Part shown: piece after piece, positions 8,598-62,361 of the stretch
How positions within the stretch are numbered: the stretch's first letter is position 1
How the letters are laid out: each line of letters opens with the position of its first letter
Origin: Nocardia asteroides
GTDB lineage: Bacteria; Actinomycetota; Actinomycetes; Mycobacteriales; Mycobacteriaceae
NCBI RefSeq assembly: GCF_900637185.1
Contig: NZ_LR134352.1
Coordinates: forward strand, 744,001 to 808,000
Length of the DNA stretch: 64,000 bases
Direction of reading: 5' to 3'
Notes under the pieces: model-generated
The model's input: the letters and a program-made list of their open reading frames with translations, nothing else
Told to the model about the DNA's origin: nothing
The model's database searches: none
Program-made: the position numbers and the translations under genes

Positions 8598-11500
8598 ATG
8601 GGCGACGATGATTCCGCTCATCGGCACGACCACGACGACCGTCGCGACGGACCGCCACAGCGTCCGGCGCCGGCCGCACCGTGGGAGCGTGGGATGACGG
8701 GCGGGGAACACGAAGGACACGTCGCCGCACCGGGCTCCGGCCTGCCCGAGGGGCGGCCGCTGCCGCCGCGTCGTCCGGGGGGCGATCCGCGTGCCGGGGG
8801 ACCGGCGGGTCAGCGGGGTGTGGATCCGCGCGGTGCCGGGGGGTTCCCCGAACAGGCCCGTCCTCCGTACGGCGAACGTCCCGACGGTCGTCCGCAGCCA
8901 CCGCCCGGCCGCTCGGGAGAGCTGCCGCGCGTCCAGCTGCCCGGCGAGTTCGCTCCGCGTCCTGGGCCGGGCGGTCCGGGCGCAGCTGGTGGTCCCGGCG
9001 GGCCCGGCGCAGCTAGTGGTTCCGGCGGGCCCGGCGCAGCTAGTGGCTCCGGCGGGCCCGGCGCAGCTAGTGGTTCCGGCGGGCCCGGCGCGGCCGGTGG
9101 TCCCGGCGGGCCTGGCGTCGCCAGTGGTCTCGGCGGACCGAATGGCCGCGGCGGGATGAATGCTCCCGGTGGGCTCGGTCGCCCCGGCCCGCAGGGTGGA
9201 CCCGGCCCGCATGGTGGACCCGGTGTCGCCGGTGGCCTCGGCGGTCCCCATGGTTCGAGCGCTCCGGGCGGTCCCGGTGCTCCACCGCAGCATCCAGGCC
9301 AGGCCGGTGCGCGTCCCAGCGGATTCCCGCCGGACCAGCATCCCGGCCAGGCCCCACGCCCGTTGCCGGGCGAGTTGCCGCCGCATCGCCCCGGCCAACA
9401 GCCTCGTCCCGCATCCGCGGGTCCACGCTCAGGTGAGTTCCCGCAGCAGCGCTCGGATCAGCCCGGTTCGGCGCGGTCGGGTGAGTTCCCGCTGCAACGG
9501 CCGCTGCATGAGCCGGGTTCCGCCGCGCAGTCCGGCGAGTTCCCGCTGCAACGACGTCCTGGTCAGCCGCTGCCCGGACCCGGCGCGCAGTCGGGTGAGT
9601 TCCCCCGGCAGCAACGCCCGGGCGCACCCGCCCAGGGGTCCGGCCCACGCGGCGGCGAGTTCCCGCAGCGTCCCGGGCAGCCCCCGCGGCCCGCTTCCGG
9701 CTTCGACGCGCGCTCCGGTGAGTTCCCGCAGCAGCGCCCCGGTCAGCCGATCGCACCCGGCCAGGGCGAATTCCGGCCGCCCAGCCACGCACCGGGCGCC
9801 GACGCCAGACCACAACGGCCAATGCTGCCCTCGGACGCCGACCCGGGCCTTCGTCCGCACTCGGCACAGACACGAGGCGCCGAAGCGGACTTCCGTACAC
9901 AGCGCCCCGGCCATCCGCCCGCCAGCGACGCGGACTTCCGCACACAGCGCCCCAGCCAACCGCCAGCCGGCGACGCGGACTTCCGCACGCAACGCCCCGG
10001 CCAACCGCCCGCCAGCGACGCGGACTTCCGCACGCCGCGCCCCAGCCAACCGCCCGCCGGTGACGCGGACTTCCGCACGCCGCGCCCCAGCCAACCGCCC
10101 GCCGGTGACGCGGACTTCCGCACGCCGCGCCCCAGCCAACCGCCCGCCGGTGACGCGGACTTCCGCACGCCGCGGCCCAGCCATCCGCCCGCCGGTGACG
10201 CGGACTTCCGCACGCCGCGGCCCAGCCATCCGCCCGCCGGTGACGCGGACTTCCGCACGCAACGCCCCGGCCAAGCACCGGGCTCGGAGCAGCGCGGGCC
10301 GCAGTCGGGCGCGATTCCGCGTCAGGCACCGGCCGACGGTGTTCGCCGGGACGACGCGGCGTCGGGGCGCGCGAGGCCGCCGCAGGGACCGCAGTCCGGT
10401 GCCATCCCTCGGCAGCGGACCGGTGCGCAGCCCGGCGGCTACGACGCGCCGGGACGGCAGCCGGAGCGGCGCAGCGCGCCGCAGCGGTATCCCGGGATGC
10501 CGGGGACGCCGGTCGACGCCGAGGCGCGACGTCGCCCCGTCGCCGTCGACGACAATGCCGCCGCGAAGACCCAGAAGATCGCGCGGCCAGCGAAGGTCGC
10601 TGAGAAGGACACGCCGCAGAGCGCCAACGCGAAACTGCTGAAGGACTCCGGCTCCATCGCCATCGCGACGCTGATCAGCCGCATCACCGGCTTCGCCAAG
10701 CAGCTGCTGCTGCTGACCGTGCTGGGTCCGGCGATCGCCAGTGCATTCACCTCGGCGAACCTGATCCCGAACATGATCGCCGAGCTGGTGCTGGGCGCCG
10801 TGCTCACCGCGATCGTGGTGCCCACGCTGATCCGCGCCGAACAGGAGGACGCCGACAACGGCGCCGCGTTCGTGCGCAGACTGGTGACGGCCGCGTTCAC
10901 CGTGTTGTTCGCCGCCACCGTCCTCACCATGGCCGCGACCCCGATCCTGGCCACCCATGTCTTCGTCGCCGCCGACGGCAAGGTGAACACCGCGCTCACC
11001 ACGGCGCTCACCTACCTGCTGGTGCCCGCGATCCTGTTCTACGGCATGTCCGCGCTGTTCACGGCCATCCTGAACACCAGGCAGGCGTTCAAACCGGGTG
11101 CCTGGGCGCCGGTGCTGAACAACATCGTGGTGCTGGTGGTGCTGGCCGTGTACGCGCTCACGCCGGGCGAGATCAGTCTCGACCCGGTACGCATGGGCGA
11201 CCCGAAACTGCTGGTCCTCGGCATCGGCATCACGGCCGGTGTGGCGACGCAGGCGCTGAGCCTGCTGCCCGCCATCCGCCGCCACGGCATCGACCTGCGG
11301 CCGCTGTGGGGTGTGGACACGCGCCTCAAGCAGTTCGGCCGGATGGGCGCGGCGATCATCCTGTACGTGCTGATCAGCCAGGTCGGCCTGGTGGTCGCCA
11401 ACCACATCGCCTCCGCCGCCGACGAGGCGGGCCCGGCCATCTTCCAGAACGCCTGGCTGCTGCTGCAGCTGCCCTACGGCGTGCTCGGCGTGACCCTGCT

Positions 11501-19873: not shown

Positions 19874-20902
19874 TCACAGTGACGTTTCGGGGCCGGATTG
19901 CTCCATCAGCGCCACAATGCGCTCGAGGTCTTCGACGGAACCGAACTCGACAACGATCTTGCCCTTACGCTTACCGAGACTCACCGTGACCCGGGTGTCG
20001 TAGGAACCCGACAGCCGCTCGGCCACTTCCTGCAGACCCGGCATGTGGATCGGCTTGCGCTTCGGCGCCGGGGGAGCGACCTCCGTCGGATTGCGGTTGG
20101 CCAGCGTCACCGCTTCCTCGGTGGCCCGGACCGACAGTCCTTCGGCGACGATCCGCGCCGCCAGCACTTCCTGCGCGTCGGCTCCGGCATCCAGTCCGAG
20201 CAGCGCCCTGGCGTGCCCGGCCGAGAGCACGCCGGCGGCCACCCGACGCTGCACGGGGATCGGCAGCTTCAGCAACCGGATCATGTTCGTCACCACCGGG
20301 CGGGATCGACCGATTCGCGTGGCCAATTCCTCGTGGGTGACGTCGAATTCCTCGAGCAGCTGCTGATACGCGGCCGCCTCTTCGAGCGGGTTCAGCTGCA
20401 CGCGGTGGATGTTCTCCAGCAGGGCGTCGCGCAGCATCGAGCCGTCGGCGGTGTCGCGAATGATCGCGGGGATCGTCGCGAGCCCGGCCTCCTGGCACGC
20501 GCGCCACCGGCGCTCGCCCATGACCAACTGGAACTTGTCGACCCCCGGCTCCACCCGGCGCACCACGATCGGCTGCATGAGGCCGAACTCGCGGATCGAG
20601 TGCACCAGTTCCGACAGCGCCTCTTCCTCGAAGACCTGTCGTGGCTGCTTCGGGTTCGGGACGATCTGGTCGGCGGGCACCTCGCGGTAGACCGCGTCGC
20701 CGGGGGAGACGAGTTCCTCCTCAGGCTCCGGCTCGGCGTCCGGAACGCGGTGCAGGAATGCCTCGGCCGGCTGCGGGCCGATCGGGTTGATCCCGATCAC
20801 GCTCGCCGCGGCACTGCTGAGACCCGGCGCCGTCGCCGCCGGACCCGTCGGGATCAGTGCGGCCAAGCCGCGCCCGAGACCGCCCTTTTTCGCCTGACTC
20901 AT
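19874..20902 (-). CDS. parB: Chromosome partitioning protein ParB
   Basis: CTP-dependent DNA clamp that loads at parS and spreads to organise the origin. The N-terminus [12 protein letters not shown] is typical. The CTP/arginine motif [21 protein letters not shown] lies in the middle, followed by the helix-turn-helix region [26 protein letters not shown]. The C-terminus is the usual dimerisation segment. Length 342. It is the second gene after parA with a 34-base gap. Six parS-like sites, its presumed targets, are found in this window between 21897 and 48625. Confidence 0.96.
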
Positions 20903-20936
20903 CGGCTACCGATCCCTTCCTCGTTCCAACACACCA

Positions 20937-21932
20937 CTACGACGCGTCCTGGCGCAGCTGAGCGCGGGCGGCGAGCTCGCGCCCCGCGTCCAGGTAGCTC
21001 ATCGCACCGCGGGAGCCTGGATCATAATCGAGCACGGTCATGCCGTAGCCCGGTGCCTCCGAGACCTTCACGCTGCGCGGGATCATCGACTTGAGGACGA
21101 CATCGCCGAAGTGGTTGCGCACTTCCTCGGCGACCTGGTCGGCCAGTTTGGTGCGGCCGTCGTACATCGTCAGCAGCACGGTCGAGACGTGGAGTTCGGG
21201 GTTGAGGTGCGCCTGCACCAGCCCGATATTGCGGAGCAGCTGACCCACGCCCTCCAACGCGTAGTACTCACACTGGATCGGGATCAACACCTCCTTGGCC
21301 GCCACGAGCGCGTTGACGGTGAGCAGGCCGAGGGAGGGCGGGCAGTCGATCAGGACATAGTCGATGTCGTACCCGGCGAGCGCCGCCTCGTGGATGGCCG
21401 TCTTCAGCCGGCCTTCGCGCGCGACCATCGAGACCAGTTCGATCTCGGCACCGGCGAGGTCGATGGTGGCCGGAATGCACAGCAGCCGTTCGCCGTGCGG
21501 ACTCTGCTGAATCGCGTCCTTGACGGCGACCTCACCGATGAGCAGTTCGTAGCTCGACGGAACCCCGGAGTGATGCGCGACGCCCAACGCCGTACTCGCG
21601 TTGCCCTGCGGGTCGAGATCGACAACGAGAACCGTCATGCCCTGGTGCGCTAGCGCCGCAGCGAGATTGACCGTGGTCGTCGTCTTTCCGACGCCGCCCT
21701 TCTGGTTCGCGATGGTGATGATCCGTTGCTCGCGGGGTTTCGGCACAGTGACCTTTCCTGGATGCAGAATCTGGCTGGCGCGTTGCGCTTCCGCCGCGAT
21801 CGGGGTCTCGGCCGGGGAGATGTGCCCGAAAGGAGTGTTCCCGAACGTCTCCTGGTCGAAGCTGCTGGAGTCCAGCATCCCCGGGACCCGCGACGCTGTT
21901 TCCCGTGAAACATTCGCCGGACCGCTCGACAT
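20937..21932 (-). CDS. parA: Chromosome partitioning ATPase ParA
   Basis: Walker-type ATPase that moves ParB-bound origins. It shows the deviant Walker A KGGVGKTTTTVNLA (about residues 79-92), Walker A' (VVDLDPQGNAST) and Walker B (VLIDCPPSLGLL). A non-conserved N-terminal extension of about 65 residues precedes the ATPase fold; part of it (NVSRETAS) is encoded by a parS-like site at 21897-21912, so the coding sequence also carries a ParB site. Start ATG at 21932, 331 residues. Upstream lies the satellite region rather than rsmG, which normally sits close by. Confidence 0.96.
   Translation of the reverse strand: MSSGPANVSRETASRVPGMLDSSSFDQETFGNTPFGHISPAETPIAAEAQRASQILHPGKVTVPKPREQRIITIANQKGGVGKTTTTVNLAAALAHQGMTVLVVDLDPQGNASTALGVAHHSGVPSSYELLIGEVAVKDAIQQSPHGERLLCIPATIDLAGAEIELVSMVAREGRLKTAIHEAALAGYDIDYVLIDCPPSLGLLTVNALVAAKEVLIPIQCEYYALEGVGQLLRNIGLVQAHLNPELHVSTVLLTMYDGRTKLADQVAEEVRNHFGDVVLKSMIPRSVKVSEAPGYGMTVLDYDPGSRGAMSYLDAGRELAARAQLRQDAS
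21897..21912. promoter_or_regulatory. parS-like ParB binding site 1 (inside parA)
   Basis: TGTTTCCCGTGAAACA, 15 of 16 matches to the consensus TGTTTCACGTGAAACA. It lies within the 5' end of parA, about 11 kb left of the oriC unwinding region. Confidence 0.85.
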
Positions 21933-22156
21933 AGACAGCTCCTAACCCGAGAAACTTCAGATCACGTACTCCCGACCGAGCGTCGGCGCCGTGTCGTCAC
22001 AAACAAGATCGGCGGCGTCCGGCCATTCTGACGGTGGCTCCCGGCGCGCACGCCCGACTGTGAATAGCTTGCCAGCACTACGACGGATAAGAAAGCTGAA
22101 TCGCGGCACGCCGAGCAGGACACACCCAAGTTCACCCAATGCACTTGCCGGATCAA

Positions 22157-22172
22157 TGTTTCACGGGAAACA
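22157..22172. promoter_or_regulatory. parS-like ParB binding site 2
   Basis: TGTTTCACGGGAAACA, 15 of 16 matches to the parS consensus, upstream of parA and just left of the satellite DNA that starts near 22340. Confidence 0.85.
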
Positions 22173-24340
22173 CGAACAAAACGACCCCCAAATCCCAGCG
22201 GCCGATAGACCTTTCCGCGCCCCACTCAACCGGCCCGGCCCCATCCGAGCAGCCCACACGCGATCACCGCCCAAGGACAACTCAGCAACGAGACGTCATG
22301 GGATCACATGCACAGCTGAACTCGACGAGACTAGGGACAGACTGAGCTGGGCCGAGCTGGGCTAGGTCGCATCGAGTCAGGCCGAGCTGGGCCGGGCCGC
22401 ACCACGTCAAGCCAAGCTGGGCCGGGCCGGGTCAGGCTGAGCTGAGCTGAGCTGAGCAGCATCGAGCCAGGCTGAGCTGAGCTGGGCCGGGGCGGGGGTC
22501 AACGACGCCGCGACCGGCCGACCGGCTGAACCGTATCCGGAGCCGACCCACTACGAGTTCGCCGTGCTGGACGGAGCACGATGGGTTGGGCCGCGCCGCA
22601 CTACTCCACACCTCACCGCACTGAGCCACGCCACGCTGGGCCGGGCCACCGGACCGGGTGGGCCGCCTGGGCTGAAGCCGGGGCGCTCAGGGCCGAGCCG
22701 CTTGGCCGGGCCGCTCTAGTCCGGTCCGGGCCGCTCTGGTGCGGGCGGCGCCACAGCGCTCTGGGCCGAGCTGGTCCGCGCCGCACCGCTCTGGTCCGCG
22801 CCGCACCGCTCTGGGCCGCACCGCACCGCGCCGGGGCCGAGTCACGCACCGCACCGTGCCCGGGCCGGTTCACACGCGCACGCGCTGGGCCGGGCGAGTC
22901 ATGCCGCACCCACACCGAGCTGCCCTGAGCCACGCCGCATCTGGCCGACCGCTGGGGCCGCACCGAGCCTGGCCGCGTCGAACCACACCGATGGGCAGTC
23001 GCACCATGTAGGGCAGGGCGAGGCCCGCACCGCGCCCCACCCCACGGCACGGCATCACATCGAAGCGCCCAACCGCAGAGGCCGAGCCAGAACCGAGCTG
23101 GACAAGACTCGCCGGCAGCGCCGCGCTCTGCCCGGCAGGACGTATTCGGAGCAGGCTCGGGCCGGACGGGGCCGCGCGCACCGGGCCGCGCGCACCGGGC
23201 CGTGCTGGGCCGCGCACCGCGACGGGCCACATCACAGGACAACACCTACCGCGCCGGGCCGCGCCGAACCGCGCCAGGCCGAATAGCGCCGAGCCGGGCG
23301 GGCCGCGAGCAGAGCCGGGCTAGACCGTACAAGCACGGCGCCGATGCTGAGGCCGACGCGGGTGAGTCGACTGTCTGCCGCCGACCGGGGGCTGCCTCGC
23401 TTATACCTCCGGCGAGAGCGGACCGAGCCGCACCGAACCAACATGCATTCGGCCGAACGCCGCCGGTCCGGACCGAGCAGAGCCAAGCCGAGCCAGGCCA
23501 GGCCACGGCGGACCAAACCGTGCTGGGCCGTACCAACTGGACTGCACTGCACGCGCCGGGATGGGTCGAAACGACCCCACCGCGCTGAGCGCCGCAGAGC
23601 CGGACCGGGTGAGCAGAACTGAATCGAGCGGGGCCGAGCTGAGCCGGGCCGAACGGCGCAGCGCCGGACCGCGCCGCGGCAGACCGGGGTGGGGTAAGTC
23701 CGGACCACCAGTCCCCGTTACGCACTGCACAGATCCGGGCCAGCCAGGCCGAGCTGGCCGAGGGCCGAGCAGGCCGAGTCAGCCGGGCTGAGCCGAACCG
23801 AACCGGCCTGGGCCGAGCCGGTCAGAAGGACCCAACAGCCCGGTGCAGCACCGGGCGGTGCGGCGGCATGCCAGGGCAGGTCTGGACTGCGTTCATCCGG
23901 GACGCGTGCGGCACCGCACCGCGCAGCACCCGCGAGGTCGGGTAGCACCGCGTCCAGACCGGGTCGGGGTGAGCCGAACATCAGCGCCGGGCCGGTTTGG
24001 CCGAATTGGACGGGACGGGCCGGGCTTGGGTTGTTGGGCCTGGGCCGGGCTTGGCGGAGTCGCGCCAGCCCGGCGGGGTTACGTTCTGCCGAGCTGAGCA
24101 GAACGGAGTAGTGCCGATCTAAAGGTGGCTGGATCAGGTTTAGCGGAACGGTCAGGCCCAGGACTCCTGGGCCTGACCGAACAGGGCAGGGGAGTGGGCC
24201 GGACCGGACCGAATGGTGTTGGCGCCGGGCCGCGCTGCGGCAGGCTGGGCCGCAGCAAGTCTGGACAAGCAGCGGCGGACAGGTCGGGTTGGTTTGACGA
24301 AGGCAGGCAGGTCCGGGCTGCGCTTAGCCAGGCTCCGCCG

Positions 24341-24400
24341 GGCAGCACCGCGTCAAGGCAGGCAGCACCGCGCCAAGCCGGACAGCACCGCGCCAGGCCA
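24341..24400. repeat. 20-bp tandem sub-array in the satellite
   Basis: Three consecutive 20-bp units, GGCAGCACCGCGTCAAGGCA and two close variants, followed by decayed copies to about 24455. A second 20-bp array of different sequence (CTGGTCCGCGCCGCACCGCT type) lies at 22771-22830. Confidence 0.85.
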
Positions 24401-25623
24401 GGCGGCGCCGGACACCACCGCGCCAACAGCACCGCGCCAAGCCGGACAGCACGGCGCGGTCCGGCGCTGCACAGTTCAGCCCGACTCAGTTCGGCCCGGC
24501 TCGATTCAGCTTTGCCCACCGGTCCGGCCCGGCTCTGCCTGCCCCGGCTCTGCCTGGTCCTGCTCCGCCTGGTCCAGCCACCGCGCCAAGCAGCCGGGCG
24601 ACGCCGGGTGGCGTGGCGCCCGGCGGGCAGAACCAGGTCCGGATCGAGACCGGGCTTCGCTGGGTCGGGCTGGCTGTGCCCGCGCTGCGCCGAGCCGGTC
24701 AGAACCCCACCGCGCCCGACCGCGCCGAGCCGAGCCGGTCAGAACCGCGCCCGACCGCGCCGAGCCGAGCAAGTCAGAACCGCACTCGACCGCACGTGCC
24801 GTGACGAGCGGAGCAGGGGGGCGTACCGAGCCGAGCCGAGCAGGGGCGTACCGAGCCGGGCAGGCCGCACCGGGCAGGCCGAGCGCCGCATTGGCCCAAG
24901 CCGCCCGGACGGAACCGCTTCTGGCCGCACGGCAGTGCATCAGGCCGTGCCGGGCCGATCCACCAGGGCAGGTCCGCTGGACCCAGCCGTGCCGGGGTGG
25001 ACCGCCGGGCTTGGCCGACCAGCCGCGCCGGGCTGGGTCGGCAGGACATGGACACATCGGACTGAACCACACCGCACGGCGCCACGCCGCGGACCGGATG
25101 CCGCCTGTGCGCACTCGGCTAGGCCGCACAGGCTGGGCGGGTCAGGACCGGGCGGCCGGGGGTTGTGTCCCGCTGGGCTGGGCGCGCAGCTTCGGCCGCA
25201 CGCAGGGCCAGGCCGAGCCGAGCCGGACCGGACTGGCAGGGCTGGGCGGGAGCAGTACCGGGCCTCGACGGGTCGCACAGAACCGGCGGTGCAGCGCCGG
25301 GCAAATACCTGGGTCGGGCCATGCTCAGCCAGGCCCAGCAGGTTTGAACCGGGTCAGGCCGGATCGGTCCACGCCCAGCCGGGTCGGGACATGCAGGTCG
25401 GGACATGCCGATCCGGGCCTAGCGGGATTGGACTGGGCGGCGCCATGCCATGCCGGGCCATGCAGGACCGGGCGAGCTCGGCATCGGTGGCGTCCGGGCC
25501 ATGCCAGACCGGACCGCCGGACCCGGCTAGGAGAGGCCGGGCTGAGCCAAGCAAGGCCGGGCTGTGCCATACCGGACCGGGTCATACCGGACCTAGTCGG
25601 GAGGGGCCGGGTTGAGCCAACCG

Positions 25624-25860
25624 AGGCCGCGCTGGGTGACGCCGTGCCAGGTCGAGCCGAACTGGGCGGCCTGGTGGCGCTACGCCAGGTCGAACCGAGC
25701 TGGGCGGCCTGGTGGCGCTATGCCAGGTCGAACCGAGCTGGGCAGCCTGGTGGCGCTATGCCAGGTCGAACCGAGCTGGGCGGCCTGGTGGCGCTACGCC
25801 AGGCCGAGCCGAGCTGGGCGGCCTGGGTAGCGTTATACCGGGTCAGGCTGAGTTGGGCAG
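25624..25860. repeat. 38-bp tandem array in the satellite
   Basis: Units begin at 25662, 25700, 25738, 25776 and 25814, exactly 38 bp apart, with decayed copies before (25624) and after (25852). The unit starts CTGGGCGGCCTGGTGGCGCT and ends in CCAGGTCGAACCGAG. Copies differ at only a few bases. There are no spacers between units, so it is not a CRISPR. Confidence 0.93.
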
Positions 25861-26123
25861 GCCAGGCTAGGCGGGCCAGGCGGGACAGGGCGGGGCCAAG
25901 CGGGACCGCATCAGGCTGGCGGAGTGCCAAGCTGGGCCGGGCCGCTGGACCGGGCCGAGCGGGATAGCGCAGGACCGGGGCGGGACAGGCTGGACGACCG
26001 GGCCAGGAGGCGGGTCAGTGGGCACGCCGCGACACCCTCGGCTGGCCCGGTCGCCCAGCTCGCGTGACAGTGAGCCGTTCCGCTTGTCGAACTTTCGGTG
26101 GTGGCGTCGGCCGCACACGGTCA

Positions 26124-26139
26124 TGTTCCACGTGAAACA
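26124..26139. promoter_or_regulatory. parS-like ParB binding site 3
   Basis: TGTTCCACGTGAAACA, 15 of 16 matches to the parS consensus, just right of the satellite and downstream of rsmG. Confidence 0.87.
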
Positions 26140-26246
26140 CGTCTGCAGCGCAAGGTTGCGGCGACCCATCGGGAACATCGAAATTTCAGCCGATCTGGCG
26201 GTAGGCAGCTACACCCAACCAGTTTTGTCACGTTACGAAACGTGAA

Positions 26247-26987
26247 TTACCGCTTTCGCGCCTTCTTCTCCGCACCCGCAATCTTTCGCGCACCCCGACG
26301 GGTCGGTCGCTCGGCGCGGGGGAGGAGTTCGGCATTGATGACGAGTGTCGGCACCTCGACGATGCCCGCGCCGCAACCGACGACGCGGAGGTCGGTCGCT
26401 CCGTCGCGGATCAGTTCGGCGCCGTCGCGTTCGAGTTCCTCGGCGGCGCTCGTGCCCTTGAGGGCGAGCATCCGTCCGTGGTCGCGGAGGAGGGGGAGGG
26501 ACCAGTGGGCGAGTTTGGCGAGGGGGGCGACAGCGCGGGAGGTGACCACGTCGGCGCCGCCTGCTTCCTTGATGACGCCGGACTGCTCGGCCCGGCCGCG
26601 CACCACGGTGACGTTCTTCAGCCCGACCTCGTCGACGAACTCGCTCAGGAAGATGGTCCGGCGCAGCAGCGGTTCCACGAGGGTGATGCGGAGGTCCGGC
26701 CGCGCGATCGCCAGCGGGATTCCCGGGAGGCCCGCGCCGCTGCCGACGTCGACGACGGACGCGCCCTCTTCGATCAGTTCGCCGACCACCGCGCAGTTGA
26801 GGATGTGCCGCTCCCAGAGGCGGGGGACCTCGCGGGGGCCGATGAGTCCGCGTTCCACGCCGGCGGTGGCCAGCGCCGCACAGTAGCGGCGGGCGAGGTC
26901 CAGGCGGTCGCCGAATACCCGCGCGGCAACGGCCGGGGGTTCCAGGTCGGCGGTCTGCGCACCCAGTTCTCGTTCCACGTGAAACAT
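26247..26987 (-). CDS. rsmG: 16S rRNA (guanine527-N7)-methyltransferase RsmG (GidB)
   Basis: Methylates G527 of 16S rRNA using S-adenosylmethionine; loss of the M. tuberculosis enzyme gives low-level streptomycin resistance. The SAM-binding motif [17 protein letters not shown] is clear, and the family segment [12 protein letters not shown] precedes it. Length 246 residues with a basic C-terminal tail. The start codon and first residues (MFHVER) are written inside a parS-like site (26972-26987), a feature also seen in other actinobacterial rsmG genes. A terminator at 27028-27052 lies just upstream, so rsmG probably has its own promoter. Confidence 0.95.
26972..26987. promoter_or_regulatory. 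parS-like ParB binding site 4 (over the rsmG start)
   Basis: CGTTCCACGTGAAACA, 14 of 16 matches to the parS consensus. Its last three bases are the complement of the rsmG ATG, so ParB binding could affect rsmG expression. Confidence 0.8.
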
Positions 26988-27027
26988 CCTTCCGAGTGGT
27001 GATCGATTCTCAGCAGGGCATGAATAA

Positions 27028-27052
27028 GGCCCCCGGTCCGAGACCGGAGGCC
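27028..27052 (-). terminator. Intrinsic terminator of the rpmH-jag operon
   Basis: Read on the minus strand: an 11-bp stem with one mismatch (GGCCTCCGGTC / GACCGGGGGCC), a TCG loop, then TTATT. It starts about 30 bases after the jag stop codon. Confidence 0.8.
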
Positions 27053-27082
27053 CTACTCACACTCTTCGTGGGCGGTGTCAGC

Positions 27083-27616
27083 CTACTCGGGCACGACCAC
27101 CACATGACGATTCGGCTCGACACCTTCGCTCTCGCTGGCCACGCCATCGATGTCGGCGACGGCGTCGTGCACGATCTTGCGCTCGAACGGGGTCATCGCG
27201 GACAGCGCCTCGGGCTTGCCCGACTCCAGCACCCGCTTGGCCGCGGCGACGCCGAGCTCGCTCAGATCGCTGCGCCGCTGCGCGCGCCAGCCGGCCACAT
27301 CCAGCATCAAGCGGCTGCGCACGCCGGTCGCCTGCTGCACCGCGAGCCGGGTGAGCTCCTGCAGTGCGTCGAGAACTTCACCGTTGCGTCCGACGAGCTT
27401 GGTCAGATCACGACCGCCGTCGATGCTCACGACGGCACGGTCGCCCTCGACATCGAGGTCGATGTCGCCGTCGAAGTCGAGCACGTCCAGCAGCTGCTCG
27501 AGGTAGTCGCCGGCGATCTCGCCCTCTTCGATCAGCGCTTCCTCAGCGTCGTTCACGACGTCAACAGTCGTCGCCACAGTGGCGTCCCCTCCGTCGGTCT
27601 CGGTCTCAACAGTCAT
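27083..27616 (-). CDS. jag: Jag/KhpB-type KH-R3H RNA-binding protein
   Basis: Cytoplasmic RNA-binding protein of the Jag (SpoIIIJ-associated, KhpB) family, at the position of Rv3920c. An acidic N-terminus precedes a KH domain (LVGRNGEVLDALQELTRLAVQQ holds the GxxG-type loop) and a C-terminal R3H domain (LDVAGWRAQRRSDL...MTPFERKIVHDAV). Length 177. It is the last gene of the rpmH-rnpA-yidD-yidC-jag operon, 24 bases after yidC and followed by a terminator. The conserved link to yidC suggests a role in membrane-protein or envelope gene expression. Confidence 0.92.
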   Translation of the reverse strand: MTVETETDGGDATVATTVDVVNDAEEALIEEGEIAGDYLEQLLDVLDFDGDIDLDVEGDRAVVSIDGGRDLTKLVGRNGEVLDALQELTRLAVQQATGVRSRLMLDVAGWRAQRRSDLSELGVAAAKRVLESGKPEALSAMTPFERKIVHDAVADIDGVASESEGVEPNRHVVVVPE

Positions 27617-27640
27617 TGGATTCCTCTATCCGATCGCCAC

Positions 27641-28717
27641 TCAGCGCTTACGCTTCTGGTTCGCACGGCCGCGGTTACCCGGCCGCTTCTGGCCTCCCGG
27701 CCTGCGCTGACCGCCACCCTGCTTGGCGGTCTGCTTGGCGGTGCCGTTGGTCGCGGCGGTGCCGTTGGTCGACGAGTCGTCGGTCGCGGCGTCCTGTGGA
27801 CGCTTGCGGACGTCGACCGGTTTGGCGCCGGGCTTCGGCGCGTTCTGCGCCCGCTGCTCCAGCTTCTTCGCCTTCTTCTCTTCCTCTTCCTTCTCCATGC
27901 GGCCGAACACCAGGTGCTGCTGACCGTAGGTCCAGATGTTGTTGGCCACCCAGTAGATCAGGATGCCGATCATCAGGAAGGGGCCACCGACGAGCACGCC
28001 GAGCGGGAAGACCCACAGCGACAGCTTGTTCATGATGGCGGCCTGCGGGTTCGCGGCGGCTTCCGGCGTCTGCCGGTCGACGGAGGCGCGAGCGTTGAAG
28101 TGCGTCGCCAGACCGGCGATCACCATCAGCGGGATCGCGACGAGCGCGATGGTGAGCTTGGTCGGGGTGCCGCCCCACTCGGCGAAGGCTTCCAGTTCGC
28201 TCTGCGGCATCGTGATGAACGACGCGATCGGCGCACCGAAGATGCGGGCGCTCAGGAACGACTGGACGTCGGTCGCGGAGAAGATGTAGTTCGGGGTGTG
28301 CGCGTTGTCGTACGCGGACATACCGAGCTGGCCGAAGCCGTGGCCGGTGCGGTTGAACGAGCGCAGCACGTGGAAGAGACCGAGGAACACCGGCACCTGC
28401 ACGAGGACCGGCAGACAGCCCATCAGCGGGTTGAAGCCGTGTTCCTTCTGCAGCTTCTGCATCTCCCGCGCCATGGTCTCGCGGTCGTTCTTGTACTTCT
28501 TCTGCAGCTCCTTGATCTGGGGCTGCAGCTCCTGCATCTGCTTGGTGGTACGTACCTGCTTGACGAACGGCTTGTAGAGCACGAGCCGCAACGTGAAGAC
28601 CAGGAAGACGATGGCAAGGCTCCAGGCGAGCCCGCTGTCGGCGCCGAACACGAAGCCGAAGGCTTTGTGCCAGAACCACAGAATCGCGGATACCGGCCAA
28701 TAGATGATGTCGAGCAC
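27641..28717 (-). CDS. yidC: Membrane protein insertase YidC
   Basis: Inserts membrane proteins alone or with SecYEG. Five hydrophobic segments are visible, starting with [20 protein letters not shown]. The cytoplasmic hairpin after the second helix is highly charged ([29 protein letters not shown]), and [24 protein letters not shown] follows. The C-terminal tail of about 90 residues is very basic (ends [15 protein letters not shown]) and probably contacts ribosomes. The start is the GTG at 28717, only 4 bases after the yidD stop. 358 residues matches mycobacterial YidC (Rv3921c). Confidence 0.96.
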
Positions 28718-28721
28718 GGCT

Positions 28722-29021
28722 CTAGGTACTCCCGTCGTTCGTATCGCCGATCAGCGCGGGCGATGACTTTGTGCAGGCATTCGACCCGCGCTCTGGCACG
28801 GGATCCCACCCTCCAGGGTGCCAGGGCGCGCATTTCGCGAGGCGCACGACCGTCAGCACCGACCCGACGAGCAGGCCGCGGGTGCGCAGGGCGGTCACCG
28901 CGTACTCACTGCAGGTGGGGGTGAACCGGCAGATCGGCATCCGGGTGGGGGAGACATAGGTCCGGTACAGCTCGATCAGGAAGATCAGCGTGTTCGCGGG
29001 GAGCCGGAGCAGCGTCCTCAT
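28722..29021 (-). CDS. yidD: Membrane protein insertion efficiency factor YidD
   Basis: Small membrane-associated helper of YidC-dependent insertion. It shows the family pattern [34 protein letters not shown] followed by [14 protein letters not shown], including the conserved cysteines. 99 residues. The ATG overlaps the rnpA stop by 4 bases (29018-29021), so translation is coupled to rnpA. Confidence 0.95.
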
Positions 29022-29437
29022 CGCCGCTCACCGACCGGGGTGCGACCGAGCGCGGGCTCCGGTGCACTGCGCAAGCCGAGCTTGCGTAGTCCGGTGCGCA
29101 GCTGGCGCAGCAACTCGGCGGAGTCGGCGGTGGCCGCCCCGGGCAGCGCCCGGATCACCACATCGGTACCCGCGGGCAGTTCGTCGACGACCTGGGCGCA
29201 CATATGACGCAGGCGGCGGGCCACCCGGTGGCGAACCACCGCGTTACCCACCGCCTTGCTCACAATCAACCCGAACCGCGGCCCACCGATCCGGATCAGG
29301 GAATCGACGTCGGCGACATCGTCGTACGTATGCGTGAACGCATGTACGACGAGATCTCGCCTCCCGATTCGCTGACCGCGGCGCACCGTGCGGGAGAATT
29401 CGGCACGGTGGTGCAACCGATACGGCTCAGGCAACAC
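29018..29437 (-). CDS. rnpA: Ribonuclease P protein component
   Basis: Protein subunit of RNase P, which trims 5' leaders of pre-tRNAs. It has [19 protein letters not shown] and the RNR-type motif region [21 protein letters not shown] that binds the catalytic RNA. GTG start at 29437 is 22 bases after rpmH. 139 residues, basic. Order rpmH-rnpA-yidD-yidC is nearly universal. Confidence 0.95.
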
Positions 29438-29459
29438 CCCGAGCGTCCGACTGGCGCTA

Positions 29460-29603
29460 TCAGGCAGTCAGTTCGGCACGGCCCTTACGGCGACGCGCCG
29501 AAACGATGGCGCGACCCGCACGGGTGCGCATCCGGAGGCGGAAGCCGTGCACGCGCGCCCGACGACGGTTGTTCGGCTGGAACGTCCGCTTGCCCTTGGC
29601 CAC
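29460..29603 (-). CDS. rpmH: 50S ribosomal protein L34
   Basis: 47-residue basic ribosomal protein: it starts [20 protein letters not shown] with GTG as start (29603) and ends RKGRAELTA. It is the first gene of the leftward operon and divergent from dnaA. It matches L34 along its whole length. It is short, so easy to miss by length cut-offs. Confidence 0.97.
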
Positions 29604-30257
29604 GGTCAACACTCCTCGAGTTGGTGGGCACCGTACGGCGCCCGAAGTCTGTTCAATGATTCGGATGTCTGCGCAGCGGACCGCGGTCTACACGCAGAAA
29701 GCCTTGGCGATCGACGTGCAGCACAGAGCCGCCACCGCGCCAAGGGGTGACTGTACGAGGGTACTGATACCGCCAGGCAGGGTCAAACTCGGCCCCCGGA
29801 CACGGGTGCCGGGCACGATCTCCAGGTTACCGGACGCCATCGGACGGCCCCGAGCTGGGCCGACCTGGGACGACACGCCCGGGACGCACTGACGCAGCGG
29901 GGGAGTTTTCGTGAGTTCGTCCACACCTCTGGCCTTCTGCGGCGGCGACGGCTAACCTCTGTAGCCGGGGGATTGCTGAAGAACCGCAGGTCCAGCCCCA
30001 TTCACTGCCACACGCTGGCAGATTCCCCTTATCCCCAGGTTTGTCCACATCTGTGGATAATTGTGTGGAAAGACGGCCCGAGTGGCATATTCGTAGGGCC
30101 GACGGTGCCCGCGCCGCACTCGGAGATTCTGGGACCGCACGGCGTTCGAACCGGCTTCGGTTGTACGCAGGATTACTGGATTCCACCTGTTCACAGGTGG
30201 TTGCCGGCGTGCTCCCGGCCGTGGGCCCCAACGAACCGGTTCCGGGGAGGACGCTGC
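29604..30257. promoter_or_regulatory. rpmH-dnaA divergent control region
   Basis: 654 bases without a gene. DnaA boxes cluster at 30029-30060: TTATCCCCA (30029-30037, one mismatch), then the perfect inverted pair TTGTCCACA (30041-30049) and TGTGGATAA (30052-30060). An exact inverted repeat CCACCTG-TTCA-CAGGTGG lies at 30183-30200 in the probable dnaA leader. The boxes fit the known autoregulation of dnaA. I could not place -35/-10 elements with confidence. Confidence 0.75.
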
Positions 30258-32498
30258 ATGGACGACGAGCAGAATGTGCTGGCCACTGTTTGGCCGGAGG
30301 TGGTTGCCGAGCTCACCACCGGCTCCGCCGACGGCGCCATTCCCGCGGTCAGCCGCGCCCAGCAGGCCTGGCTGAAGCTGGTCAAACCGCTCACCGTCGC
30401 CCAGGGCTTCGCGTTGCTGTCGGTTCCTTCGTCGCTGGCACAGGAGGCGATCGAGCGCGATCTGCGTGAGCCCATCCTGCGTTCGCTGGGCCGCAGGCTC
30501 GGGCCGCAGGTGGAAGGACTCGGTGTTCGCATCGCCGCGCCGAGCCCGGCCGCGGGGGAGCGGGCGGGTAGTTCGCCCCGGCACGCCAGGATGACCAGCA
30601 GGCCGGAGCGGCCGCGGGAGCAGGCGCGTCCGCCCTCGGGCTACCCCGGCCCCGATTTCGGCGTCCCCGACTACGCCGCGCGCGGTGAGTACGGCAGGCC
30701 GCGCTACGGCGCGGGCGAGTACCCCGGCGGTGCCGGCGAGTACGGCAACGACTACCCGGCCGGCGCGGAGTACCCCGCCACCGGCGACTACGGCTCGGGT
30801 TACGGCGGCCGCGACTACCCCGGGCAGCCGGGCGAGTACGGCGAGCGCCCCGACTATCAGAGCCACCGCGAGTACCCGGCCGACACCGAGTACCGCCAGC
30901 CCGACACCGACTACCGTCAGCCCGAGCCGGAGTACCGCCAGCCCGAGCCCGAGTATCAGCAGCAGCCAGACTTCCCGCAGCAGGCCGAGTACGCGCAGAC
31001 TCCGGACTATTCGCAGAACCCGGAGTTCGGTGCCGAACGCCCCGAGTTCCCCGGTACCGATTTCGAACCGACCGCGGTGTACCCGGTGCCTGACTACGCC
31101 GGCGGTGAGTTCGGCGGCCGCGGCGAGTTCCGTGGCGGCCGCCCCGAGCCGCGCCCGGCCGAGCCCGCCCAGCAGGCCCGGCGCGAGCCGAGCGGTTCGC
31201 CGCGCCGCGAGCACATCCCGCCCGGCCAGGAATCGCTGTTCACTCCCGACCCGCCGCCGCAGCGCGCGCCGAGCCGCGGCCGGGCTCCGCAGCCGGAGGA
31301 GCCGCTCGCCGCGCGCGTCGAAGAACCCGTCGTCGAGGCGGCGCCCGAGCCGCTGCGGCCGGGCACGCCCGGTGCCGAGCCGGCCGAGGACGAGCCGGTG
31401 GTCGACGCCCGCAACAACTGGCCGACCTACTTCAACAAGTCGCCGGAGGCGCCGCCGCAGGCTTCGTCCTCGGCGAGCCTGAACGCGAAGTACACCTTCG
31501 AGACGTTCGTCATCGGCGCGTCGAACCGGTTCGCGCACGCGGCCGCGGTCGCCATCGCGGAAGCGCCCGCCCGGGCCTACAACCCGCTGTTCGTCTGGGG
31601 CGCTTCGGGTTTGGGCAAGACGCACCTGCTGCACGCGGCAGGCCACTACGCGCAGCGGCTGTTCCCCGGCATGCGGGTGAAGTACGTCTCCACCGAGGAG
31701 TTCACCAACGACTTCATCAACAGCCTGCGCGACGACCGCAAGGTCGCGTTCAAGCGGCGCTACCGCGAGACCGACATCCTGCTGGTCGACGACATCCAGT
31801 TCATCGAGGGCAAGGAAGGCATCCAGGAGGAGTTCTTCCACACCTTCAACACCCTGCACAACGCGAACAAGCAGATCGTGGTCTCCTCGGATCGCCCGCC
31901 CAAGCAGCTGGCCACCCTGGAGGAGCGGCTGCGGACCCGCTTCGAGTGGGGCCTGATCACCGACGTGCAGCCGCCCGAGCTGGAGACCCGCATCGCGATC
32001 CTGCGCAAGAAGGCGCGGATGGACCGGCTCGATGTGCCGCACGACGTGCTCGAGCTCATCGCCAGCCGGGTGGAGCGCAATATCCGCGAGCTGGAGGGCG
32101 CGCTGATCCGGGTGACGGCCTTCGCTTCGCTCAACGGCCAGCCGCTGGACCTGTCGCTGGCCGAGGTGGTGCTGCGCGATCTCATGCCCGACACCGCGGC
32201 GCTGGAGATCAACGCGGCGACGATCATGGCCGTCACCGCCGAGTACTTCAACACCACGCTGGAGGAACTGACCGGGCCGGGCAAGGCGCGCCCGCTCGCC
32301 CAGGCCCGCCAGATCGCCATGTATCTGTGCCGGGAGCTCACCGATCTCTCGCTGCCCAAGATCGGCCAGGCGTTCGGTCGCGACCACACCACGGTGATGT
32401 ACGCGGAGAAGAAAGTGCGCAAGGAGATGACCGAGCGGCGCCGCGTCTACGACCAGGTGCAAGAACTCACAGCCCGGATCAAACAACGCTCCCGCTGA
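30258..32498 (+). CDS. dnaA: Chromosomal replication initiator DnaA (long-linker form)
   Basis: Binds DnaA boxes and opens oriC. Domain I is residues 1 to about 95 ([11 protein letters not shown]...). Domain III starts near 409 ([22 protein letters not shown]), with Walker A GASGLGKT at about 448-455 and Walker [14 protein letters not shown]. Domain IV carries the signature [17 protein letters not shown] 30258 has GGGGAGG upstream at good spacing. Unusual: domain II is about 300 residues, disordered, and dominated by Tyr, Glu, Pro and Gln in short periods ([17 protein letters not shown] and similar), giving 746 residues against 507 in M. tuberculosis. It ends at a strong terminator. Confidence 0.98.
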
Positions 32499-32514
32499 TT
32501 TCATCCCCAACCCC

Positions 32515-32549
32515 GAACACCGCCCTGACCTGGGGCGGTGTTCTTTTTT
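32515..32549 (+). terminator. Intrinsic terminator of dnaA
   Basis: GAACACCGCCC and GGGCGGTGTTC form a perfect 11-bp stem (32515-32525 with 32533-32543), followed by TTTTTT at 32544-32549. It starts 16 bases after the dnaA stop and insulates oriC from dnaA transcription. Confidence 0.92.
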
Positions 32550-32551
32550 GC

Positions 32552-32599
32552 CCTGTGGATTCCTCGAGGAATCCCTGTGGAGTCCTCGAGGAATCCACC
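32552..32599. repeat. oriC 48-bp element, copy A
   Basis: Composed of two 22-bp-spaced units of the form TGTGGA-N-TCCTCGAGGAATCC. The first contains a perfect 18-bp palindrome GGATTCCTCGAGGAATCC (32557-32574). DnaA half-boxes TGTGGA (32554, 32576) and TCCAC (32595) flank the palindromes. It is repeated almost exactly as copy B, 185 bp to the right. Confidence 0.95.
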
Positions 32600-32736
32600 G
32601 CTTGTGCACCGGTTGGCGCACAGGGCCTGGGGACCGATCTGGGAGTGTTCACTCACAGGGAGTTGTCCACATCGTCCACAGCTCGATCCATGCACACCTC
32701 CACGGCCGGGCGGACCTGCGGCGACGCTGGATCCGT

Positions 32737-32784
32737 CCTGTGGATTCCTCGAGGAATCCGTGTGGAGTCCTCGAGGAATCCACC
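32737..32784. repeat. oriC 48-bp element, copy B
   Basis: Identical to copy A (32552-32599) at 47 of 48 positions; the one change is C to G between the two 22-bp units. It has the same palindrome at 32742-32759. Together the two copies give four TGTGGA-N-TCCTCGAGGA units in oriC. Confidence 0.95.
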
Positions 32785-32965
32785 TGGTTGCCACCACCCT
32801 GCCCCGACGTGTGAACAACCGGGTGAATCCGGTGGAACAACTCGAGGACTACTCGAGGATGAAAATGGGACAACTTCGCGCGTCCACAGTCGCGCCCGGT
32901 TCATCCTCGAGACACCCCACGGCCATCCCCATGCCGACGTGCCCGCTGACCTGCGGATTCGGGCG

Positions 32966-33032
32966 AAGTCCACAGATTCCACAGTGCCTACTACTACTTC
33001 AGTTCTTTCTTCTAGAGAGATCTCTTCAAAAC
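32966..33032 (+). other. Candidate DNA unwinding element with DnaA-trio-like motif
   Basis: Two abutting DnaA-box-like 9-mers (AAGTCCACA, GATTCCACA), a GC spacer (GTGC, 32984-32987), then CTACTACTACTTC (32988-33000) and an AT-rich run to about 33032. The complementary strand reads 3'-GAT GAT GAT GAA-5', the DnaA-trio pattern described for the bacterial basal unwinding system. Confidence 0.7.
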
Positions 33033-54357: not shown

Positions 54358-55886
54358 GGTTGTCCTTGTGGCGCGGTGTCGTCGACGGTGATGTTCGGGC
54401 CGAGCGCGTTCGGGGCGTCCGGGAACGGCAGGTCGAGCGTGGGCAGCCGGGGACGTCCGTTGACCGTGGTGGTGCCGCCCGCCGTGGTGGAGGCCGGCGG
54501 CTTGGTGGTCTTGGTCGTCGACGGCGGCTTCGTGGTGGTCGTCGGCGGGACGGTCGTCGTGGTCGGCGGTTCCGTCGTGGTCGTCGGCGCCTCGGTGGTC
54601 GTCGTCGGACGCGGCGGCGGGGTCGTCGTCGGTTCCTCGGTGGGCGGCACGATCGGCGGCGGGAACGTCTTGCTCGTCACCGGCGGGGGCAGCGGATTGG
54701 TGGTCTGCACCGTGGTGGTCGTGGTGGTGGAACCACGATTGGGCTCACCGCCGAACAGCAGCCACAGCACGCCGCCGCCGAGCAGCAGCGCGCCGATACC
54801 CAGGGCGATCAGCCACTTCTGGTTGTTCCTGGCATTGCTGCCCGCCGCGACGGCCGCGGGGGCGGCGGCCTGGGTGGCCGGACCGGAATAGCCGCCGCCG
54901 GGGGTGATCGGCTGCGGTGCCTGGTTGCCGAAACGCATGGTCGCGCCGTCGTAGTCGGCGCCGGCGGCGGCCGGGATGACCATCGTCGGGCCGGGCGGCA
55001 GCACCCGGGTCGCGCCGGTGAGCGAGGGCGCCGCGCCCGCGGGCGGGGGCGGCATGTGCCCGGCGCGCACCGCGGCGACCGCGTCGGCGAACTCGCCGCC
55101 GCTGCTGTAGCGCTGCGACGGGTCCTTGGCCATCGTGATCGCGATCAGCTCGTGCACGTTCGGCGGCAGATCGGCGGGCATCGGCGGCGGTGCGTCGCGG
55201 ACGTGCTTCATCGCGACGGTGATGGCGCCGTCGCCGGTGAACGGGCGCACGCCTGCCAGCGCCTCGTAGCCGACGATGCCGAGCGAGTACACGTCGCTGG
55301 CCGCGGTGGCGTCCTCGCCGACGGCCTGTTCGGGCGCGATGTACTGGGCGGTGCCCATCACCATGCCGGTCTTGGTCACCGGCGAGGCGTCGACCGCCTT
55401 GGCGATGCCGAAGTCGGTGATCTTCACCTGGCCGGTAGGCGTGACCAGGATGTTTCCCGGCTTCACGTCGCGGTGCACCACGCCGGCGGCATGGGCGACC
55501 TCGAGTGCGCGGCCGGTCTGCTCGAGCATGTCCAGACCCTGGACGACCGAGAGCCTGCCCATCCGGTTCAGCACGGCGTTGAGCGGCTCGCCTTGGACGA
55601 GCTCCATCACCAGGTAGGCGGTCTCGCCGCCCTGCGGGTCGGTGGTCTCGCCGTAGTCGTAGATGCCCGCGATCCCGGAGTGGTTGAGCTGCGCGGTGGT
55701 GCGCGCCTCGGTCCGGAACCGCTGACGGAAGGTCGGGTCGGCGGAGAACTCGGTCTTGAGGACCTTGACCGCGACCCGGCGGTCGAGCCGGGTGTCCATC
55801 GCTTCCCACACCTGACCCATACCGCCGGTGGCGATGAGCCGCTGTAGGCGATAGCGGTCGGCGATCATGGCGCCGTTGTTCAGCAT
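54354..55886 (-). CDS. pknA: Serine/threonine protein kinase PknA
   Basis: Partner kinase of PknB in growth and division control. Kinase domain: Lys41 in [29 protein letters not shown], activation loop [20 protein letters not shown]. Membrane helix [22 protein letters not shown] near residue 370. The outer part is a Thr/Pro-rich stalk (long TTTT, PPTTTT runs) without PASTA domains. ATG 55886 ([25 protein letters not shown]) is preferred; the frame extends upstream without conservation. 510 residues. The stop overlaps the pknB ATG. Confidence 0.96.
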
Positions 55887-60951: not shown

Positions 60952-62361
60952 TCAGACGATCCGGATCAGGATCTCGGAATGTCCGGCCCGGATGACGTCG
61001 CCGTCGGCGAGCTGCCAATCCTGCACCGGCGAGCCGTTGACCAGGGTTCCGTTGGTGGAGCCCAGGTCGGAGAGCATCGCGGTCTGGCCGTCCCAGCGCA
61101 CCTCGATGTGGCGGCGCGACACACCGGTGTCGGGCAGCCGGAAGTGCGCGTCCTGGCCGCGGCCGATGATGTTGCTGCCCTCGCGGAGCTGGTAGGTGCG
61201 GCCGCTGCCGTCGTCGAGCTGCAGCGTGGCCGAGTAGCTCGACTGCTGCGCCGCGCCGTAACCGCCGCCCGCGGGCTGGCCGTAACCCGGCTGCTGAGCG
61301 CCGTAGCCGCCCTGCTGGCCGTAGCCGCCCTGCTCCTCCTGGCCGTAGCCCGGATCGGCGTAGCCCTGCTGGCCGTAGCCACCGCCCTGCTGGCCGTAGC
61401 CCTGCTGGTCGCCGTAGCCACCCTGCTGGCCGTAACCGCCCTGCTGGTCATAGCCGGGTTCGGCGTAGCCCTGCTGGCCGTAGCCACCCTGCTGGCCGTA
61501 GCCCTGCTGGTCGCCGTAGCCACCCTGCTGGCCGTAACCGCCCTGCTGGTCGTAACCGGGGTCGGCGTAGCCCTGCTGACCGCCGTAGCCGCCGCCCTGC
61601 TGGCTGTACGCCTGCTGACCGTAGCCACCCTGCTGGTCGTAACCGGCCTGATCGGCGTAGCCCTGCTGGCCGTAACCACCCTGCTGGCCGTATCCGCCCT
61701 GCTGGTCGTACCCGTTCTGGTACTCGCCGCCCTGCTGGCCGTACGCCTGGTCGCCATAGCCTTGCTGGCCGTAGCCACCCTGCTGGCCGTACTCGTCCGG
61801 GTAGGCACCGCCGGGGGCCGCACCACGGCCGGCGGGCGGCGGAGCGTACCCGCGGTTGCGTGGATCGGACTCCGCGGGCTCTCGGCTCGGCTCGTAGCCT
61901 GAGTTGTGCGTCATGGGGCCAGCTCCTGGTTGCGGGTGTGCGGGTCGTTGTGGCGGTCCTGGGCGAGGTGGGGCGGTCCCGCGACCGGCGTCGGGGTCGA
62001 CGCGGCCGCTCGCTCTGAACATTCCGGTGTGCAGCGTAGGTGATGCCTCGAACGCCACGTGTACTTCGCCGTAGGTCTGCCAGCCCTGCTCGCGGATGTA
62101 ATCCTGCAGATGTTTGGCGAACGCCTTGGTCGTGAGGTCGTGATCGGCGTCGAGTTTTCCGTGATCGGATTCGTTGATCGTGATCACGTAACTGTTCGGC
62201 GCGAGCTTGTGCCCACTACCCAGATCTTGCACCTGATCAGCGGCTTCGCGCTGCAGAGCGGCCTCGACCTCCTGGGGGACGACACTGCCGCCGAACACTC
62301 GCGCGAACACGTCACCGACAGCGCCCTGTAAGCGTCGCTCGAATCTCGACACGATGCCCAT
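60952..62361 (-). CDS. fhaA: FHA-domain protein FhaA with Tyr/Gln/Gly-rich linker
   Basis: Binds the phosphorylated MurJ pseudokinase in mycobacteria and restrains peptidoglycan synthesis. The N-terminal DUF3662 domain ([25 protein letters not shown]... to about 130) is followed by some 200 residues of [16 protein letters not shown] repeats, then an FHA domain ([35 protein letters not shown]). ATG 62361 is used (AAGGGAGGG upstream). 469 residues. Separate from fhaB by 168 bases, so it probably has its own promoter. Confidence 0.95.
61203..61800 (-). repeat. YGQQGG-type low-complexity repeats in fhaA
   Basis: In-frame repeated codons for Tyr-Gly-Gln-Gln-Gly-Gly, spaced with YADPGYDQ and YGDQQGY units. 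Composition (almost only Tyr, Gly, Gln, with some Asp/Ala/Pro) is like that of phase-separating low-complexity domains. DNA-level near-identity of units implies expansion by slippage. Confidence 0.85.

Follow-up and report, generated by a model that had tools for sequence, protein, structure and literature searches.

A degenerate pentanucleotide satellite in the hypervariable, parS-bearing spacer between parA and rsmG of Nocardia

We analysed a 64,000-nucleotide stretch of the Nocardia asteroides chromosome (NCBI RefSeq assembly GCF_900637185.1, contig NZ_LR134352.1, positions 744,001 to 808,000; hereafter the window), in which the partition gene parA and rsmG are separated by a degenerate pentanucleotide satellite of 3.7 kb. 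The genome is a single contig of 6.98 Mb. The satellite (22333..26032) takes up most of the space between two parS-like sites, at 22157 and 26124. Across Nocardia this spacer is hypervariable and species-specific, and satellites of other kinds recur in it, while the parS-like sites persist. The explanation that we favour, and consider probable, is that the DNA between the parS sites tolerates any length and that slippage repeatedly gives birth to satellites there, parS being kept and the satellite not. A preliminary description, made from the sequence alone, had placed a GC-rich degenerate satellite of about 3.7 kb at 22340..26015, inside the partition locus, and had seen centromeric logic in it. 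Our results uphold the satellite and strengthen the comparison with a centromere; the two bordering parS-like sites were absent from that description.

The extent of the array was delimited with a five-state periodic hidden Markov model (HMM) trained on 22340-26015. Across 22333-26032, 36 of 37 blocks of 100 nt were positive (block 23333 was negative), and the four preceding and three following blocks were all negative. The model gives the unit as (G/A)-C-(C/T)-G-N, or R-C-Y-G-N, with phase jumps at ~4% per base. Transitions account for most of the changes away from GCCG in the first four positions, and position 5 varies almost freely; the ancestral unit was probably GCCGG. The array matches itself at lag 5 with an identity of 0.471 (z 18.8 relative to 50 order-1 shuffles), or 0.716 when only purine and pyrimidine are distinguished; the tandem-repeat analysis proposed at the outset revealed a pentamer periodicity beyond chance. 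The likeness is local: identity at multiples of 5, which is 0.47 at a distance of 5 bp, has fallen to 0.31-0.32 by 100 bp and stays there. By base counts the satellite is 74% GC, its inner 500-bp windows (71-76%) being mostly higher than their neighbours. The + strand carries an excess of A over T, which, judging from the periodic model, may stem from a G-rich unit with G-to-A changes. Rows reported by Tandem Repeats Finder (TRF) cover only 22% of the parA-rsmG gap of the window. Among them is a 38-bp unit repeated 4.8 times with 94% matches (25646..25826), which reads as a recent local duplication, and a repeat search found an inverted repeat whose 69-nt arms (23608..23676 and 24452..24520) are 87% complementary. 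The 38-bp array and the inverted duplication point to later rearrangement inside the satellite.

Sequence of this kind is rare in the same genome. As a control we sampled 1.2 Mb (17% of the genome) in 60 segments of 20 kb; none of the resulting 4740 windows, each of 500 bp, exceeded a lag-5 identity of 0.40. A repeat score above 0.11 was reached by 13 of 13 overlapping 500-bp satellite windows and by 2 of the 4740 control windows; the corresponding figures in another species (G112) were 7 of 15 windows in its own parA-rsmG gap (L132) and 1 of 1580 windows over 400 kb. Within the sampled genome and the window, the parA-rsmG gap is also the longest stretch lacking a coding signal (3734 bp; the next is 2698 bp). 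When the satellite was searched against plasmids, nothing came closer than a stretch of 150 bp, matching at 69%, that lies between two annotated genes of a Mycetohabitans megaplasmid.

The preliminary description had judged the segment non-coding, with open frames in several registers, and our tests agree. Two long open frames, of 584 and 496 amino acids, overlap on the + strand of the satellite. Long frames arise readily here because stop codons seldom occur in DNA of this make-up: a frame of 584 amino acids or more turned up in 2 of 300 block shuffles and in 4 of 300 order-1 shuffles, so that the longer frame is unusual but not beyond chance. A hexamer model, home-made and trained on the window's own genome (and less sure for other species), detected no coding signal across the gap, the best score being 12.6 over 48 bp. 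Three satellite frames tested matched no Pfam family, and the homology check for a real long protein gene found no homologue of the 584-amino-acid frame at E 0.001 among 7978 scored candidates. Rfam gave no match at the gathering threshold across 20000-33000, and folding resembled that of shuffled sequence (mean z -0.46 and -0.23, 24 windows per strand), with no RNA fold signal. With neither a coding signal nor a homologue found, the evidence supports a non-coding satellite. That a real gene or regulatory RNA encodes a low-complexity product is barely credible: the longer frame does exceed most shuffles, but the long frames overlap, the period is 5, the searches for coding hexamers, Pfam, homologues and Rfam families were empty, and nothing in the gaps of sister species matches.

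It is nearly as improbable that the segment is an assembly artefact. Repeats do assemble poorly, and in 9 of the 146 Nocardia genomes that have both genes these lie on different contigs; against this, the window genome is one contig, degenerate units are easier to place than pure ones, and the same kind of gap appears in the assemblies of other species. A further suggestion, that the array is a substrate for a nucleoid protein such as Lsr2, is not favoured either where sequence-specific recognition is meant. Lsr2 prefers AT-rich DNA, whereas the satellite, at 74% GC, is not richer in AT than the genome, and from one species to another the gaps change in unit, period and composition; its base composition makes Lsr2 binding unlikely.

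We searched for parS with the pattern TGTTTCACGTGAAACA, allowing up to two mismatches. The core of the pattern agrees with the Mycobacterium smegmatis motif, GTTTCACGTGAAAC, as given in a table row of a parS review (PMC7022226), and the window sites share this motif. The whole 6.98-Mb genome contains seven parS-like places, and the reversed-pattern control found none. Four of the seven are clustered by oriC, within 5.1 kb and beside parA and parB, at window positions 21897, 22157, 26124 and 26971; the remaining three are at C1:742433, C1:792610 (window 48610) and C1:978550. The first of the cluster (21897..21912, one mismatch) lies inside the 5' end of parA. The second (22157..22172, one mismatch) forms the left border of the variable spacer, blastn alignments with relatives ending at most 2 bp away, and the third (26124..26139, one mismatch) forms the right border, as the gap alignment also indicates. 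The fourth (26971..26986, two mismatches) is at the rsmG start codon. The motif suggests that ParB would bind at these sites. Non-repetitive, non-conserved spacer ends flank the satellite on the left (22173..22332, outside the HMM extent) and on the right (26033..26123, by HMM and gap alignment). Even at up to three mismatches no parS-like site occurs within the satellite, and its unit is unrelated to parS, so that it does not fit a ParB-binding iteron array.

The sites recur throughout the genus. We compared 83 distinct gaps, namely those of 67 named Nocardia loci, that of the window and 15 chosen mainly for length, so that shares of repetitive or long gaps in this set are not genus-wide frequencies. 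All 83 contain at least one parS-like site, with a mean of 3.1, and the density is 1.41 per kb in the gaps versus 0.011 per kb in the flanks (13 sites in 1,152,619 bp), a difference of ~125-fold. We rejected the idea that parS multiplied by tandem duplication together with its flanks, since the 30-nt flanks of sites within one gap are hardly more alike than random (identity 0.329 vs 0.311; above 0.6 in 3 of 376 pairs vs 0). As to the sequence of the sites, a perfect TGTTTCACGTGAAACA is found in 0 of the 260 in these gaps, all having one or two changes, and the core 14-mer is perfect in 9 of 260. The site nearest parA is commonly TGTTTCACGGGAAACA (28 of 83 gaps) or TGTTTCACATGAAACA (25 of 83), the reverse complements of which are rare.

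Upstream of parA (21933..22172, - strand), alignment with the closest relatives extends over 240-242 nt, with 84-93% identity in the four compared. The spacer from the first of the bordering sites to the next measures 114 bp in L009, 323 in L010, 981 in L011, 1894 in L007, 3347 in L006 and 3951 in the window genome. Close relatives that make do with 114 bp show that a long spacer is no strict requirement. With the window spacer, blastn found no match in sister species whose flank identities are 92.3% and 92.1%. One of these, L006, is 92.3% identical to the window genome over 17.4 kb of aligned sequence, and its spacer holds a 17-bp unit repeated 31 times (98%), a 16-bp unit repeated 13 times and a worn CAC-rich repeat, none resembling the pentamer; TRF found no array in the 981-bp spacer of L011. 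Among the named relatives compared, the nearest are Nocardia sp. MH4, N. rhizosphaerihabitans and N. neocaledoniensis, at 90-92% nucleotide identity.

Differences in length extend over the whole genus. In 137 of 148 sampled Nocardia genomes, mostly one per species, parA and rsmG lie on one contig and one strand (two genomes had no rsmG match and nine carried the genes on different contigs), and the gap ranges from 270 to 7836 bp, with a median of 1043 bp and 42 gaps of at least 2 kb. The window genome ranks 13th in length. On a quick tree of five joined proteins, with 68 Nocardia tips of which 20 have long gaps and with 17 of its 74 inner branches open, gaps of at least 2 kb require at least 13 changes, with at least 11 at a 1-kb and at least 9 at a 3-kb threshold; these are minimum counts in which gain and loss are indistinguishable. 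The five-member clade of the window genome (SH-aLRT 99) alone spans gaps from 522 to 4314 bp. Among 16 gaps of the neighbourhood, measured on named loci with both genes on one contig (67 rows), parA-rsmG varies by far the most: over 67 loci its interquartile range is 597-2200 bp and its maximum 6534 bp, and 39 loci have at least 1 kb. The two gaps on the origin side are also long, with medians of 982 and 943 bp, but vary little (interquartile ranges of 724-995 and 900-1047 bp), although one dnaA-dnaN gap measures 2779 bp. In the remaining gaps the median is at most 377 bp, apart from which single outliers reach 1694 and 5865 bp. Altogether, three gaps other than parA-rsmG contain single or moderate outliers, in the range 1.7-5.9 kb.

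Outside Nocardia, we measured 98 of 204 genomes of the family, leaving out ten genomes of genus g10 with two rsmG matches and one genome with the genes on different contigs. The gap is 17-840 bp in 17 of 19 genera measured. The earlier statement that parA and rsmG lie close together in related genomes therefore holds for these genera but not for Nocardia itself, and the comparison across genomes proposed there shows the Nocardia gap to be hypervariable. Long gaps occur in two other genera: three of four g16 genomes have 3.8-4.7 kb (the fourth 67 bp) and 14 of 14 g30 genomes 1.1-4.2 kb. Of these 17 long gaps, 16 carry parS-like sites (the three of g16 and 13 of 14 in g30), and most have little or no tandem repeat by TRF. 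One g30 gap (L159, G265) of 4.2 kb is filled by a worn heptamer periodicity with a lag-7 identity of 0.44.

These comparisons bear on whether the gap is a selected platform or insulator, that is, a nearly gene-free stretch where ParB clamps would slide and SMC would load without collisions with transcription, its length mattering but not its sequence. The density of parS-like sites in the gap, their increasing number in longer gaps and the long gaps of two other genera speak for it. On the other side, close relatives keep two sites only 114, 323 or 981 bp apart, most other genera have short gaps, and some long Nocardia gaps contain genes: an IS21 IstB (L116), a FAD-binding enzyme (L127), an AraC-type regulator (L118) and a hydrolase (L131). 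We accordingly dropped the claim that long gaps are always gene-free, and we regard a selected platform as unlikely. A required ParB or SMC platform, as the preliminary description had entertained, is not borne out by the sister species, in which no more than 114 or 323 bp separate two retained parS-like sites.

Satellites recur in these gaps, and they differ between species. In 20 long Nocardia gaps the leading periods include 8, 13/26/39, 17/34/51, 18/36 and 16/32, and no unit or period common to the species was found. Some arrays are large (13 bp × 96 in L132; 17 bp × 42 in L123) and others pure (13 bp × 17 at 100% in L121; 8 bp × 45 at 100% in L175). We discarded the notion that the 5-bp period serves helical phasing, as other gaps use 7, 8, 13, 17 or 18 bp. 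Of 55 gaps of at least 1 kb, 27 contain one or more satellite windows and 28 contain none. Satellite windows make up 91 of 593 windows in these gaps, 15 of the 91 being the window genome's own; the flanks yield 43 of 4440 and the origin gaps 22 of 385, and the origin gaps indicate that non-coding DNA generally carries some such signal.

The excess in the gaps could also mean that parS is a mutational hotspot, where ParB clamps, SMC loading or conflicts in early replication would increase local breaks and slippage and so make satellites. Consistent with this are the lower counts in flanks, in origin gaps, in the window's own genome and in G112, and the fact that parA-rsmG alone of the 16 neighbourhood gaps is long and widely spread in many species. 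Other places with or without parS-like sites argue the opposite way. The site at C1:978550 sits in a sampled stretch without a flagged window, and near the site at window 48610 TRF gives only a 24-bp array. Moreover, the same type of pentamer array arose away from any such site. The satellite, searched against 150 Nocardia genomes with two candidate places scored per genome, matched in 64 including its own, nearly always as short patches. Two of the patches lie inside the parA-rsmG gap of G124 and at a contig edge beside rsmG in G049. The best outside match is a worn pentamer array of ~500 bp, intergenic, at G096:C18:69396-69881 (L196), in a 3.2-kb locus with no parS-like site at up to three mismatches. 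After this find we dropped the claim that the pentamer satellite type exists at parS only, and its presence at an unrelated place favours slippage over a centromere-specific role. The preliminary description had raised selfish expansion; between that and slippage, it is slippage that we favour. We hold a hotspot to be quite improbable, though comparison does not distinguish such a cause from mere tolerance.

Under the explanation that we favour, the Nocardia parA-rsmG gap is a mostly gene-free spacer bearing the chromosome's parS cluster. Selection would maintain the short parS sites together with the DNA upstream of parA, and would leave whatever lies between the sites free to vary in sequence and in length. 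Satellites would arise there again and again from whichever short unit starts, by replication slippage, by local tandem duplication and, now and then, by inverted duplication, and point mutation, mostly transitions, would erode them. A GCCGG-like pentamer would have grown to 3.7 kb in the window species, with no sequence-specific job, the satellite being at most an inert track between ParB entry sites. Why this gap in particular is affected may lie in its being a large zone without order-dependent content, or in ParB and SMC traffic that destabilises the DNA or favours extra track.

Several points weigh against this explanation. Given the deletion bias of bacterial genomes, 4 kb of junk ought to disappear. 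Longer gaps hold more parS-like sites (Spearman 0.72), as would also be expected if the whole zone were selected. Turnover is not uniform, since L031 and L035, which are 95.8% identical, share a fully alignable spacer. Finally, mere tolerance predicts expansion elsewhere too, whereas only one of the 16 neighbourhood gaps is both long in many species and widely spread. We also put forward, tentatively, that the parS cluster of Nocardia might act as a small regional centromere, a gene-poor zone in which ParB and SMC activity destabilises the DNA or selects extra gene-free track, satellites turning over between sister species and parS islands being kept. If true, the locus would be a bacterial counterpart to the fast change seen in the centromere DNA of eukaryotes.

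Several known systems resemble parts of this locus. As in a chromosomal ParABS centromere, adjacent parA and parB (by Pfam) are accompanied by four parS-like sites nearby, and the satellite lies 4-8 kb from the dnaA start; here, however, kilobases of species-specific satellite lie between two of the sites. Bacterial variable-number tandem repeat (VNTR) or minisatellite loci are tandem arrays with local homogeneity, and Nocardia relatives carry near-pure arrays of this sort (such as the 17-bp and 13-bp arrays of L006 and L121), but the window array is 3.7 kb long and strongly worn, and it occupies a constant position at which one species differs from another in repeat unit. The array in G096 has the same unit type and is likewise worn and intergenic, but is only ~0.5 kb and lies in a locus free of parS-like sites. 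Eukaryotic centromeric satellites undergo rapid turnover of unit and length at a segregation locus that stays in place, and by analogy the Nocardia gap would share such turnover at a kept locus. The Nocardia array is far smaller, parS marks the site by sequence, and drive and chromatin components are known from the eukaryotic side.

Fast evolution of centromere DNA is an old eukaryotic question in which drive, chromatin and recombination are tangled. The combination of a conserved locus and satellite turnover between sister species in a bacterium with a defined three-part partition system could allow tolerance, instability and selection to be separated, and indicates that repeats can be born and replaced quickly in the centromere region of a bacterium. 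The size-variable locus beside parA may also serve for strain typing of Nocardia. Among the matches listed in the open PMC literature, judged by titles and the starts of abstracts, none concerned satellites between parS sites or in the parA-rsmG gap, and the word Nocardia appears nowhere in the main text of the parS review (PMC7022226). Satellites, VNTRs and parS clusters are known; inter-site spacers repeatedly rebuilt from new satellites between sister species apparently do not figure among the papers listed.

The gene order along the window is parB (19874..20902, - strand; Pfam ParB_N and HTH_ParB), parA (20937..21932, - strand; AAA_31/CbiA), the gap, rsmG (26247..26987, - strand; GidB), a KH/R3H gene, yidC, rnpA, dnaA on the origin side (30258..32498, + strand; Bac_DnaA) and dnaN. 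Adjoining the stop end of rsmG is a near-palindromic block, TTTTGTCACGTTACGAAA (26223-26240), which, unlike most of the gap sequence, is kept in six aligned near-clade gaps; its exact form TTTCGTNACGTNACGAAA occurs in 5 of 83 gaps. Elsewhere in the window, TRF reports tandem repeats at 8963-9136, 9885-10274, 54512-54632 and 61275-61791 with periods of 27, 45, 21 and 18/102, all multiples of three, which probably lie inside genes for low-complexity proteins. In genus g10 (for example G309, G219 and G291), at least 11 genomes have two strong rsmG matches 1.1-3.5 kb apart from start to start, and in the ten with two matches that were left out above, the nearer copy lies 37-109 bp from parA.

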